From a virus, in IMG/VR virus record IMGVR_UViG_3300047550_000632, positions 1 to 33,799 of that record: a DNA stretch of 33,799 nucleotides. The stretch is one strand, 5' to 3'. How positions within the stretch are numbered: the stretch's first letter is position 1; each line of letters starts with the position of its first letter. A program made the translations under genes and the position numbers. The notes beneath the pieces were generated by a model that did no database searches, had not been told where the DNA came from, and saw nothing but the letters and a program-made list of their open reading frames with translations. Positions 11,204-31,381 of this stretch are shown here, in pieces.

Positions 11204-11527
11204 ATGCAAACCTCCATCGTTCCTGTATCTGTATTCCCCAGCACGGCCAACGTCCTCCTCATCCGCAGCATCACGCTCGGACCTCCGCCCCAGTATTTCT
11301 ATGAGCTTTCCAACGTCGTCGTGGTTCCTCCCGTCGCCGAGCAACTCGACCCGACCACCGGCGCGGTGCTTATCGCTGCTCAAGACGAGCAGACTATTGT
11401 CACGGTGCTGAAGTCTGGGAATGTCTCGATGACCGAGGCCCAATGGCAGGCGTGGCCCGCTGACGCCGACGACGACAAGGTGCAGTTGGACGCCATTGCC
11501 GAGAACCTCGGCCTGACCCGTGTCTGA
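11204..11527 (+). CDS. Small tail-associated protein
   Basis: A 107-residue protein. The N-terminal half is hydrophobic and beta-like (IVPVSVFPSTANVLLIRSI), and the end is helical and acidic (SMTEAQWQAWPADADDDKVQLDAI). The latter resembles short segments found in fibre or chaperone-like phage proteins. It overlaps the start of the signal-peptidase-like gene by eight bases. Function unknown; a fibre assembly role is possible from context. Its ATG at 11204 has no clear ribosome site. Confidence 0.6.
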   Translation: MQTSIVPVSVFPSTANVLLIRSITLGPPPQYFYELSNVVVVPPVAEQLDPTTGAVLIAAQDEQTIVTVLKSGNVSMTEAQWQAWPADADDDKVQLDAIAENLGLTRV

Positions 11528-11978
11528 GCAGCTAAAAGCCGCCTTCACTAAGTTCCCTTATTGCCTAGCCACCTACGTCTGCCTCATCGGCGCGGGGTGG
11601 CTTTTGGCTTTTGGGTGGAAGCCTGTGAAGAAAGACTTTCCCATCTACGACTCTCCCATTGCCGAAAGCGTAGCGCATGAAACCGCCCAGAAGCTAGGAG
11701 GGCGGGCTTGGGCTGTAGGGAACACTGGGTCCATGAAGCCCCTGCTTCAGGGAGGGGAGTATGTCGTTACGGTGGACAGGTTTGAAGAGATAGAGGTGGG
11801 ACAGGTTCTTGTCTATCACGCCTCCTACAATAAGAACCCCATAATCCACAGGGCCGCGCTCAAGGACAAGCATGGCTGGCTCATGTCTGGGGACAGTTCA
11901 CGATTGTCAGAGAGCTGGTCTCGGGTGACAAAGGATAACTATCTAGGAACGGCTGTGGTAGGCTATCGTAAACCATGA
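11520..11978 (+). CDS. Membrane-anchored signal peptidase-like protein (Ser-His type)
   Basis: A 152-residue protein. Residues 12-31 form one membrane segment (FPYCLATYVCLIGAGWLLAF). The rest matches the catalytic fold of S26 signal peptidases: GSMKPLL, with Ser71 as the expected nucleophile; VGQVLVYH; PIIHR, with His110; and a later SGDSS, with Asp125. Bacterial type I enzymes use Ser-Lys, but this order with IIHR and a GD box is that of the Ser-His form in archaea, SipW and eukaryotic Sec11. It would cut exported proteins at the membrane. The GTG start at 11520 overlaps the previous gene by eight bases. Its TGA overlaps the next ATG. Confidence 0.75.
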   Translation: MSEQLKAAFTKFPYCLATYVCLIGAGWLLAFGWKPVKKDFPIYDSPIAESVAHETAQKLGGRAWAVGNTGSMKPLLQGGEYVVTVDRFEEIEVGQVLVYHASYNKNPIIHRAALKDKHGWLMSGDSSRLSESWSRVTKDNYLGTAVVGYRKP

Positions 11979-28419: not shown

Positions 28420-28552
28420 CTTTATCATCTCTGTCTATGGGTTTATTGGTTTTCTTCTCTCCGTCAAGAAGTTTCTTGCGGAAAATTTCGTCGTAGTTCT
28501 CCCGATAGGTCTCGGAGAAGCAGTTGCGTGGCGCATCACCCTTACCGTTCAT
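28361..28552 (-). CDS. Small conserved phage protein, MNGKGDxPR type
   Basis: A 63-residue protein with MNGKGDAPRNCFSETYRENYDEIF and a charged end rich in Asp, Lys and Arg. The starting pattern is common in phages, usually next to DNA-metabolism genes. It overlaps the upstream TAGT-like gene by ATGA. Function unknown. Confidence 0.75.
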   Translation of the reverse strand: MNGKGDAPRNCFSETYRENYDEIFRKKLLDGEKKTNKPIDRDDKDEDYRSRPTGRTRQGSNAA

Positions 28553-29397
28553 ATGTAGGCAGGTTGCAGTGTTTCCTTGAAAACCAACTTCATTCCGTAG
28601 TTGTCAACATCTTTCAAAACAGAAACGCCATCTTTCTTTTTCAGGAAGTTGGACTTGAACCTAGAGTAATCGACATGGTGCTGCCACCTGTTCCACTTTT
28701 TTGTGATTCTTACGCAGTCTGGATGCTGCTGCTGAAGACTTTCAGCCATAATCTTTCTGCCATCTCCTGAGTAAAGTTCGGCGGTGTTTCCACCGCGCAT
28801 GGTCATGGTTGTGGCCTTTTCCTGAGTGAAGGCATAAAACAAAATGGTGCAATAGCCATCCTTCAAAACCCTTATTGAGAGATCGGTGTCCTCGTTGTAC
28901 CTTCCTCGCCACCTATGCTTGATTGAATTGTCAATCAAGATGCATGAGTAGATTCTGGTGTTGGTGATGAAGGCAGGCCAAGGCCATTTGCTCTTCAGGA
29001 AAAAATCATACTGAAATCCAGATATGGCTACGTTTTCATACCTATCAACGAAGTCTTCCGCGCACTTGAATATGGTTCCGCTGGCAACCCTTATTTGCCT
29101 GTTTCTATTCATCCTGTTAAACCCGCCAATATTGTCGTCCATGATCCAGTGCCTAGCATGGCCTTCTGACATGGAGTGATCCCAAATCCAGTTTCTTGCT
29201 GGTATTGATCCTTGTCCTAAATTTGAAAACGGCAGCGTTAGGATTTTTTGAGTATCTATAACTTTTGAGTATTCATCGTACTCCTGAGGCTCAATGACAA
29301 TTCGATAAGGAACATTTAATCTTTCCAGTGTTTTTGATGTCAATCTGCTTTCCCAGCGACCTTTCGAAACAATGTAAATTGGATACCTAGGATTCAT
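28549..29397 (-). CDS. TAGT-like (TET-associated) glycosyltransferase
   Basis: A 282-residue GT-A-like protein. The sequence IYIVSKGRW...VIEPQEYDEY...LPFSNLGQGSIPARN WIWDHS closely matches the TET-associated glycosyltransferases that decorate phage DNA bases. The nucleotide-sugar/metal motif is DDN (residues 87-89) in HWIMDDN. RWRGRYNEDTDLSI (162-175) and MTMRGGNT (198-205) are other conserved blocks. In known phages TAGT enzymes glycosylate 5-hydroxymethylcytosine made by TET/JBP dioxygenases or hydroxymethylases, none of which is visible in this window. The DNA is clearly more AT-rich than the surroundings. ATG at 29397 overlaps the preceding gene by 11 bases. Confidence 0.8.
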   Translation of the reverse strand: MNPRYPIYIVSKGRWESRLTSKTLERLNVPYRIVIEPQEYDEYSKVIDTQKILTLPFSNLGQGSIPARNWIWDHSMSEGHARHWIMDDNIGGFNRMNRNRQIRVASGTIFKCAEDFVDRYENVAISGFQYDFFLKSKWPWPAFITNTRIYSCILIDNSIKHRWRGRYNEDTDLSIRVLKDGYCTILFYAFTQEKATTMTMRGGNTAELYSGDGRKIMAESLQQQHPDCVRITKKWNRWQHHVDYSRFKSNFLKKKDGVSVLKDVDNYGMKLVFKETLQPAYI

Positions 29398-29626
29398 CAA
29401 TGTACACTTTGTCGGCTATTGTCCTGTTTTCAGCTTTCGGGTGCCAAATTGACTTTTGCTTTGGCGTGATAGGCTGACCTATAAGATTTGAAAATTTGAT
29501 AACATCCTCCTCACATCGAAAGTGAACTATTAAGCTTCTTTTGGGAGAATGATCTTCCATTACAAATTCAGGCATTCCAAACCAATGTTGTTTCCAAATG
29601 GGCCTATCGTCTTTTTCTTCGAACAT
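29387..29626 (-). CDS. Small W..MPEF protein beside the TAGT-like gene
   Basis: A 79-residue protein with a conserved-looking pattern: WKQHWFGMPEF, RSLIVHFRCEEDVIKFSNLIGQ and TPKQKSIWHP. From memory, this small domain is seen in phages near TAGT-like or ParB-like DNA-modification genes, but I cannot confirm it. It overlaps the glycosyltransferase by 11 bases and shares its low GC content, so the two may move together. Function unknown. Confidence 0.65.
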   Translation of the reverse strand: MFEEKDDRPIWKQHWFGMPEFVMEDHSPKRSLIVHFRCEEDVIKFSNLIGQPITPKQKSIWHPKAENRTIADKVYIDES

Positions 29627-29750
29627 AGGTGTATGCGGCTAAGGTTAGTAGGATTAGACTAAAGCCATAGAACTCAGGCTCAGGAACGACACTCTTCGGT
29701 GGCCGTTTCTCATACGGTTGCCAAGGATCATGTTGAGCGATGTATTGCAT
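29604..29750 (-). CDS. 48-residue peptide with PEP-CTERM-like C-terminus
   Basis: A 48-residue frame. The first half is polar (HDPWQPYEKRPPKS). The end has the three parts of a PEP-CTERM sorting signal: VPEP (residues 22-25), a hydrophobic stretch (FYGFSLILLTLAAYTYV, 27-43) and a basic cluster (RRKRR, 44-48). In bacteria that signal is cut by an exosortase that anchors or glycosylates exported proteins. There is no N-terminal signal peptide and no clear ribosome site. The gene overlaps both neighbours by 23 bases, in a different frame from each. It could also be only a small membrane protein. Confidence 0.55.
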   Translation of the reverse strand: MQYIAQHDPWQPYEKRPPKSVVPEPEFYGFSLILLTLAAYTYVRRKRR

Positions 29751-31068
29751 GGAATGTGGTAGTTGGGCGATGGAAACTCATGGTGAGGGTAGCCACACCG
29801 TCGGAGCGCCCCTTGGCCTGACAGATGTTCACTTCGATGCGCGACAGGCTCTGATCGTTGAGGTCCTGCGTTGAACCATCCAACTTCTCGTCTGGGGCGT
29901 GGATGAAGATGACGCGATCCGCATCCTGCTCAATATTGCCCGACTCGCGGAGGTCAGACAAGCGGGGCTGTCTGTTCTCCTTCTCCACCTCACGGCCCAA
30001 CTGCGCCAAGAGGATGACGGGAATCTTCAGGCTCACGGCGAGGTCCTTCAGGGCCATAGTCATCCGCCCAATGGCTATGTCTCTCGTCTCTCCACGTTCC
30101 TGCTGAGGGTCATACCGCTGGAGATAATCCACGATGATGGCCTTTACTGGCATGAACGTCTTACAGGCTTCCACGCGGGCCGTAATCTGACTCAGGGTCC
30201 TATCCTGATCGAAGACGCTCAGAGTCTTTAGTTCCGAGACCTCCTTGAGCCCTTGCGTGAACTTCTTGGCATCCGCATCCAACACCTGATTGCGCCTTAC
30301 ATTCCTCCAACTGACGCCAGAACGAATCTGGGCGAATAGAGGGGCCAGTTGCTCAATGGGCATCTCTCGGCTGAAGAGCAAAACATTCCCGTACTTCTGC
30401 GCCCAATGCCAAGCGACTTGCCGAGCGCATGAGCTTTTGCCGCGACCGGGGCGTGCCGCGACGATGATGAGTTCCCCTGCCGCAGCCTGACCCATCTCCT
30501 TATTCCAATCCTGCCAAGGCCATTCCAGCCCCGAGTTCTCCTCAGTCTCCTTACCAGCTAGGATGTCCGCGACCTTGCCTATGCAATCCGTGGCTGCTTG
30601 GCTGAGGCTCTTGCAGACGTTCGTGGCGTTCTTCAGGGCCAAGACGCGCCCAATCTTGGCTACGAAGTCGTCCATGCTTGCCTTGCGCACAAGGGCCGCT
30701 TCCCGCGTTTCCTCGCTGATTAAGGCGATCTGACGTAGCTGGTATAGCTCCCGTAGCTGGTCTAGGCTGTAAGAGAACGCAACGCCCGTTGAGGCGTAAG
30801 CCGTAGCCTCCGAATACCCCGCAACCCCTCCCACGCTGTCCAGCTTAGGATCGGACTTCTTAAGCTCCTCAAGGACGATGTGTGCATCCAGAGGCTTCCC
30901 GTGGGCATGGCATCCCATCAGGGTCTTCCAGATGGCAACGTGGGGACGGTGGTAGAACCAGCTTTCGGTGATTCGATAGTCGAGGGCCTTGCTCAGATAG
31001 GCCGCGCCATCAAGGACGATGCATGACAGGACCGTCCGCTCTGCTTCAATTGAGTGTGGTAGGTTCAT
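29728..31068 (-). CDS. Replicative DNA helicase, DnaB-like
   Basis: A 446-residue helicase. The N-terminal ~120 residues match the DnaB primase-interacting domain (PHSIEAERTVLSCIVLD...). The RecA-like domain has Walker A ARPGRGKSS (residues 205-213), FSREMP (232-237), Walker B IVDYLQ (312-317), LLAQLGREVE (353-362) and SGNIEQDADRV (376-386), all typical of DnaB. It unwinds DNA at the fork. No phage primase or polymerase is visible, so it probably recruits host enzymes. ATG at 31068 follows AGAAGAAGAA; a longer TTG start at 31089 is rejected. Confidence 0.95.
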   Translation of the reverse strand: MNLPHSIEAERTVLSCIVLDGAAYLSKALDYRITESWFYHRPHVAIWKTLMGCHAHGKPLDAHIVLEELKKSDPKLDSVGGVAGYSEATAYASTGVAFSYSLDQLRELYQLRQIALISEETREAALVRKASMDDFVAKIGRVLALKNATNVCKSLSQAATDCIGKVADILAGKETEENSGLEWPWQDWNKEMGQAAAGELIIVAARPGRGKSSCARQVAWHWAQKYGNVLLFSREMPIEQLAPLFAQIRSGVSWRNVRRNQVLDADAKKFTQGLKEVSELKTLSVFDQDRTLSQITARVEACKTFMPVKAIIVDYLQRYDPQQERGETRDIAIGRMTMALKDLAVSLKIPVILLAQLGREVEKENRQPRLSDLRESGNIEQDADRVIFIHAPDEKLDGSTQDLNDQSLSRIEVNICQAKGRSDGVATLTMSFHRPTTTFHAIHRST

Positions 31069-31381
31069 GTTTCTTCTTCTTTTGTCCAAACCATTGTTTG
31101 ATAGCCCGCTCTCCTACAGGCATGGTGGTGTAACCACGCTTGCGGTGGACGATGTTGGAGATGGTGGCGGGACTGGTCTCCCACTTCTTGGAGATGTCCG
31201 TTATCCTCCATCCATCCTTGTGCAGCCGTATCGCATCAAGGATCATGTCCGTGGTGACGATGGCTGATGGAGCCTGTTCCTTTCTCTGGAATGAGGACGC
31301 GGGAGCCAACGGCACCGACGTGTCCTTCATATGCTTTTCAAACAGCCATCGGATTGACTGCATTGTTTCGCTGATGTTCAT
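31046..31381 (-). CDS. Helix-turn-helix protein
   Basis: A 111-residue protein. The middle has a clear HTH: ILDAIRLHKDGWRITDISKKWETSPATISNIVHRKRGY. The N-terminal part is likely helical. AAGGA is seven bases before the ATG at 31381. It overlaps the helicase start, so it is probably co-expressed. It may regulate the module or act at a replication start; sequence alone cannot decide. Confidence 0.8.
   Translation of the reverse strand: MNISETMQSIRWLFEKHMKDTSVPLAPASSFQRKEQAPSAIVTTDMILDAIRLHKDGWRITDISKKWETSPATISNIVHRKRGYTTMPVGERAIKQWFGQKKKKHEPTTLN

Follow-up and report, generated by a model that had tools for sequence, protein, structure and literature searches.

Many environmental Gram-negative bacteria rely on exosortase and PEP-CTERM proteins to shape their exopolysaccharide, flocs and biofilms, and substrate recognition by exosortase is poorly understood. 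The PEP-CTERM signal (PF07589, TIGR02595) of the exosortase/EpsH system (Haft et al. 2006, PMC1569441) comprises VPEP, approximately 17 hydrophobic residues and a basic end, and the catalytic residues of exosortase are predicted at the periplasmic face (PMC1569441). Short proteins that lack a signal peptide can be inserted into the membrane by YidC independently of Sec, as established for the Pf3 coat protein (PMC8920935). The viral DNA analysed here (the window; 33,799 nucleotides) encodes a 48-aa peptide that carries the three elements of the PEP-CTERM signal and has neither a visible signal peptide nor a cargo domain.

The peptide gene and its neighbours

The gene is located at 29604-29750 on the minus strand, with an ATG at 29750 and a stop at 29604-29606, and its translation is MQYIAQHDPWQPYEKRPPKSVVPEPEFYGFSLILLTLAAYTYVRRKRR. 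The N-terminal part contains a conserved, soluble motif, DPWQPYEKRPPK (29694-29729, minus strand), which is identical in the related phage L001 and reads DAWQPYEKR in L134 and DAWTIYESR in L054. It is followed by the PEP box VPEPEFYG (29664-29687, minus strand; family consensus [VI]PEP-x-x-Y-G), in which VPEP forms residues 22-25. The 17-residue hydrophobic segment FYGFSLILLTLAAYTYV (29622-29672, minus strand) is predicted to span the membrane, and AlphaFold2 models a single helix over residues 25-47 with a pLDDT of ~94 in residues 31-40. The peptide ends with RRKRR (29607-29621, minus strand); in L001 and L006 the corresponding residues are SKRKRR. The N-tail that precedes the hydrophobic segment has a net charge of -2 to 0, compared with +5 for the tail that follows.

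The peptide gene lies between two genes on the same strand and overlaps each of them by 23 bases. Upstream, the last 23 bases of a DnaB-type replicative helicase gene (29728-31089, minus strand; PF03796, E 1.6e-50) overlap the peptide start; downstream, the start of a 79-aa gene (29387-29626, minus strand; MFEEKDDRPIWK...) overlaps the peptide end. The translation and the ORF map agree exactly with the preliminary description, which had reported a 48-residue leftward frame with VPEP, a 17-residue stretch, RRKRR and both 23-base overlaps.

A short frame that overlaps both neighbours and has no clear ribosome-binding site upstream could be a chance ORF within overlapping coding sequence from which no protein is produced. 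The codons argue strongly against this reading. Over 22 ungapped codons aligned with L001 (DPWQPYEKRPPKxVxPEPExYG), which span DPWQPYEKRPPK and VPEPExYG and fall almost wholly outside the gene overlaps of the window, 12 of 13.8 synonymous sites differ (pS 0.87, saturated) compared with 3 of 52.2 non-synonymous sites (pN 0.06). The peptide gene follows a different gene in L001, and diverged copies exist in other phages. A chance ORF is therefore rejected on codon conservation and is considered highly improbable. The excess of synonymous change indicates that the 48-aa frame is a real gene for a translated, constrained peptide. Purifying selection is strong on both the N-terminal motif and the PEP box, and the hydrophobic segment retains its character but not its sequence. 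Given its strongly conserved N-tail, the peptide cannot be just a sorting signal.

L001 encodes a 59% identical peptide behind a different small gene. A second homologue is located behind dnaB in L006; its N-terminal part differs, but VVPEPEYYG...YVSKRKRR is present. L003 and L055, whose DnaB proteins are the closest (96% and 97% identity), have no copy of the gene, nor does L004 (92%). In L003 and L055, dnaB is directly followed by a homologue of the 79-aa gene of the window, and in L004 by an NGKGD gene. The junction occupied by the peptide gene differs in each of the three related carriers. The peptide gene is therefore an accessory cassette.

In all three carriers (window, L001 and L006), the end of the peptide gene overlaps the start of the next gene. 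This gene starts MSQNGKGDSP in L001 and L006, where the other frame of the same stretch reads SKRKRR, and MFEEKDDRP in the window. Taken by themselves, L001 and L006 give no independent evidence that the basic end is conserved, since the stretch is also read as the start of the MSQNGKGDSP gene. However, the next-gene start in the other frame has changed from one sequence to the other (MFEEKDDRP versus MSQNGKGDSP), so the basic end is kept in the peptide frame regardless.

Other features of the region were also observed. A comparison with L003, L055 and L006 places the cassette junction (window 29604-29626) in a few bases that they have in common, GATAG.CC, close to where the downstream gene starts, a pattern that resembles exchange through microhomology. 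A TET-associated glycosyltransferase gene (28549-29400, minus strand; PF20691, E 1.2e-43) is suggestive of hypermodified phage DNA. In the window, this gene and the 79-aa gene come after dnaB with the peptide gene in between; in L003 and L055 they come directly after dnaB, and in L006 and L004 both are missing at that position. Elsewhere in the window, a 152-aa protein (11520-11978, plus strand) combines a hydrophobic segment at its N-terminus with a GSMKP motif; it shows weak likeness to S24/S26 peptidases (PF00717, 13.8 bits) and is possibly a phage signal-peptidase-like protein.

A family of seven peptides

Four further, diverged versions were found in L054 (MNQRENDAWTIYESRKHPPHPIVPEPSTYGATFLALCLILLAILRFKDT...), L133 (109 kb contig), L134 (41.5 kb) and L135 (130 kb). 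L134 was recovered through the N-terminal motif DAWQPYEKR and not through the PEP pattern, and it still has PEP-x-x-YG, the hydrophobic stretch and a basic end, RRKKR; its start is uncertain because no ATG is located nearby. L006, L133 and L135 were found via the PEP box, and their PEP is therefore not independent evidence. All seven peptides keep PEP-x-x-Y-G, the hydrophobic segment and basic residues, and the only invariant positions in the seven-row alignment are P-E-P and Y-G. The conservation matches the PEP-CTERM consensus beyond PEP, with V before, S/E/A after, and then an aromatic residue and G/A. Neither a signal peptide nor a cargo domain is visible in any of the seven, the hydrophobic N-terminal signal being judged by eye. 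Conservation of VPEP and the basic end in related phages had been proposed as a check on the signal; both are kept in the homologous peptides of other phages, the loss that would have spoken against the signal did not occur, and the closest relatives lack the gene altogether.

None of the seven peptides has a significant match in PHROG (one hit, E 0.36), no match to the peptide better than chance was obtained among named phages and plasmids, and no relative is present in the PDB, so membership of a known phage family is rejected. The peptide search of genome contigs and a fixed-spacing DNA pattern search (18-residue variant, immediate stop) likewise returned no match.

The host was sought via capsid and terminase relatives, and searches of 369 and 399 bacterial genomes yielded nothing useful. 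L088, a contig binned in a Rickettsiales MAG (MED657), has a capsid gene 59% identical to that of the window, and exosortase was not found in this MAG. L088 is probably a phage contig that was binned with this MAG, and it gives no indication of the host. Among named phages C75C1 is the closest; the small gene behind its dnaB is a different one, and its record names no host.

Resemblance to exosortase substrates

The window peptide has a Pro-Glu-Pro box near its C-terminus (PEP in all seven copies), a membrane-spanning segment directly after it and a C-terminal basic cluster. In place of an N-terminal signal peptide and exported cargo, 22 mostly polar residues precede PEP; the absence of a visible signal peptide, which the preliminary description had remarked on, is borne out by eye, as the N-terminus has no hydrophobic stretch. 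Residues 22-46 match Pfam PF07589 with 17.2 bits (E 0.0056), below the curated cut-off of 20.7, and the NCBIfam TIGR02595 score is 8.9 bits with a cut-off of 16. The L133 copy passes the Pfam cut-off (22.7 versus 20.7 bits). The PF07589 family search of the window record, which has low sensitivity there, missed the peptide. When 33 unrelated PEP-CTERM tails of other viral contigs were used to train a profile, the L006 homologue came first (E 0.00046) and the window peptide second (E 0.0026) among 15,829 ORFs of the phage loci, and the profile gave no match at E<1 on three shuffled sets. The match of the window peptide to PEP-CTERM is better than chance, yet it lies under the formal cut-off for this copy.

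Two tests indicate that the ending is the exosortase signal. In viral contigs, the pattern VPEPExY[AG] with L/M/V as the next residue was found at 42 places, nearly all of them true PEP-CTERM C-termini with the pattern 26-31 residues from the protein end; two were unrelated. The profile built from the seven peptides alone matched 9 of 398 bacterial genomes in six frames, and those inspected lie at the C-terminal ends of exported proteins, for example ...VPEPEFYAMLLVGLGLVSVTANRRR.... Of the 9 matched genomes, 8 encode exosortase (PF09721), versus 4 of 20 unmatched ones (Fisher p 0.0009), where the 20 are the first ones listed and not a designed control, and the PEP letters supply much of the profile score. 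This recovery of true PEP-CTERM tails in exosortase-bearing genomes indicates, at the level of sequence, that the C-terminal half of the peptide is a PEP-CTERM-type signal. The PEP-CTERM-like signal proposed in the preliminary description is thus well upheld as a resemblance, by the VPEP and basic end kept in other phages and by the recovered tails, but the window copy stays below the Pfam and NCBIfam cut-offs and shows no signal peptide at its N-terminus.

Two large phage contigs of 70 and 80 kb (L137, 2084-3310, plus strand; L142, 2682-3734, minus strand) each encode a full-length exported protein whose N-terminus is signal-like and whose PEP-CTERM-like tail carries VPEPSTYG, next to clear phage genes (PhoH-like, UvdE-like or deaminase). 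Their tails score 18.4 and 18.0 bits, likewise under the Pfam cut-off. It is therefore probable that phages make use of exosortase sorting and that tails of this style are missed by the cut-off. A protein that recurs with the ending ...GGSGWFNG...TPFDVTPVPEPETYALMLAGLAAVGGIARRRKAQR was observed in ~10 viral-classed contigs (L103-L116 and L127), which may be prophage or host DNA.

Proposed role and comparison with known systems

By the established positive-inside rule, the charge difference across the hydrophobic segment predicts an N-out/C-in topology for the peptide, and from membrane insertion onward we infer the following course. Insertion would proceed without a signal peptide, in the manner of the Pf3 coat protein and similar YidC substrates. 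The PEP box would then be placed at the periplasmic face, where exosortase acts, and the peptide, with its fixed N-tail, would occupy or titrate the enzyme as a membrane-held pseudo-substrate, probably a decoy. Maturation of surface and matrix PEP-CTERM proteins would be blocked during infection; alternatively, the peptide may be processed and a short tail displayed. In the favored and most economical reading, which has about an even chance of being correct, the gene encodes a small phage membrane peptide with a PEP-CTERM-type exosortase recognition signal as its C-terminal half and without the usual signal peptide and cargo, which most likely acts as a pseudo-substrate that competes for and titrates exosortase. 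The earlier suggestion that the phage may use or interfere with host exosortase sorting is partly supported: the signal resemblance holds well, and use or blocking of exosortase would be a putative further step.

The peptide could instead be an ordinary single-pass N-out/C-in phage membrane peptide, active for example in superinfection exclusion or the timing of lysis. It would then be unconnected to exosortase, and PEP-x-x-YG would be just a rigid turn at the membrane face. The sub-threshold family scores, the missing signal peptide and an N-terminal motif conserved as strongly as PEP are all consistent with this possibility, and weak CcmD-like matches of two members illustrate that other small N-out proteins look alike. 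However, conservation that follows the PEP-CTERM consensus beyond three letters, and a seven-peptide profile that retrieves genuine PEP-CTERM proteins and exosortase genomes, are not readily accommodated, and the reading is regarded as a serious but lesser possibility. A true exosortase substrate, cleaved at PEP so that the 22-residue N-tail with its DxWxxYExR motif moves to the surface or matrix as a tag, for example to mask a receptor, is compatible with purifying selection on the N-tail and with the large phage contigs that seem to send full exported proteins by the same route. A 22-residue cargo would nevertheless be far shorter than the verified bacterial PEP-CTERM proteins here (75 of 77 matches lie in open frames of at least 125 aa), which renders this reading unlikely.

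If the pseudo-substrate reading is true, the 48-residue peptide would provide a naturally occurring minimal ligand or inhibitor of exosortase, and PEP-CTERM surface proteins would be implicated as phage receptors or barriers. More tentatively, and with somewhat less than an even chance, diverse phages may share such signal-less mini PEP-CTERM peptides, oriented N-out, which inhibit or hijack host exosortase. This would represent the first phage counter-measure against exosortase surface-protein sorting; no phage factor acting on exosortase or PEP-CTERM was found in the open-access literature, outside which most subscription journals lie.

Three known systems resemble the peptide to different extents. 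CcmD (PF04995) is a small single-pass protein to which two family members match weakly (12-14 bits versus a cut-off of 25.6), and the window copy gives no match. The phage Pf3 coat protein (YidC substrate, PMC8920935) is likewise short and single-spanning, lacks a signal peptide and has a hydrophilic N-tail that is translocated; it differs in being a structural protein without a PEP box, and the analogy is of topology only. Unlike PEP-CTERM proteins, the window peptide has no signal peptide or cargo domain, totals 48 aa, is phage-encoded and scores below the cut-off, and the GLGL pattern usual in the PEP-CTERM hydrophobic segment is absent from it. The length from V to the C-terminus is 27 residues in the window peptide and mostly 24-28 in genuine PEP-CTERM tails.
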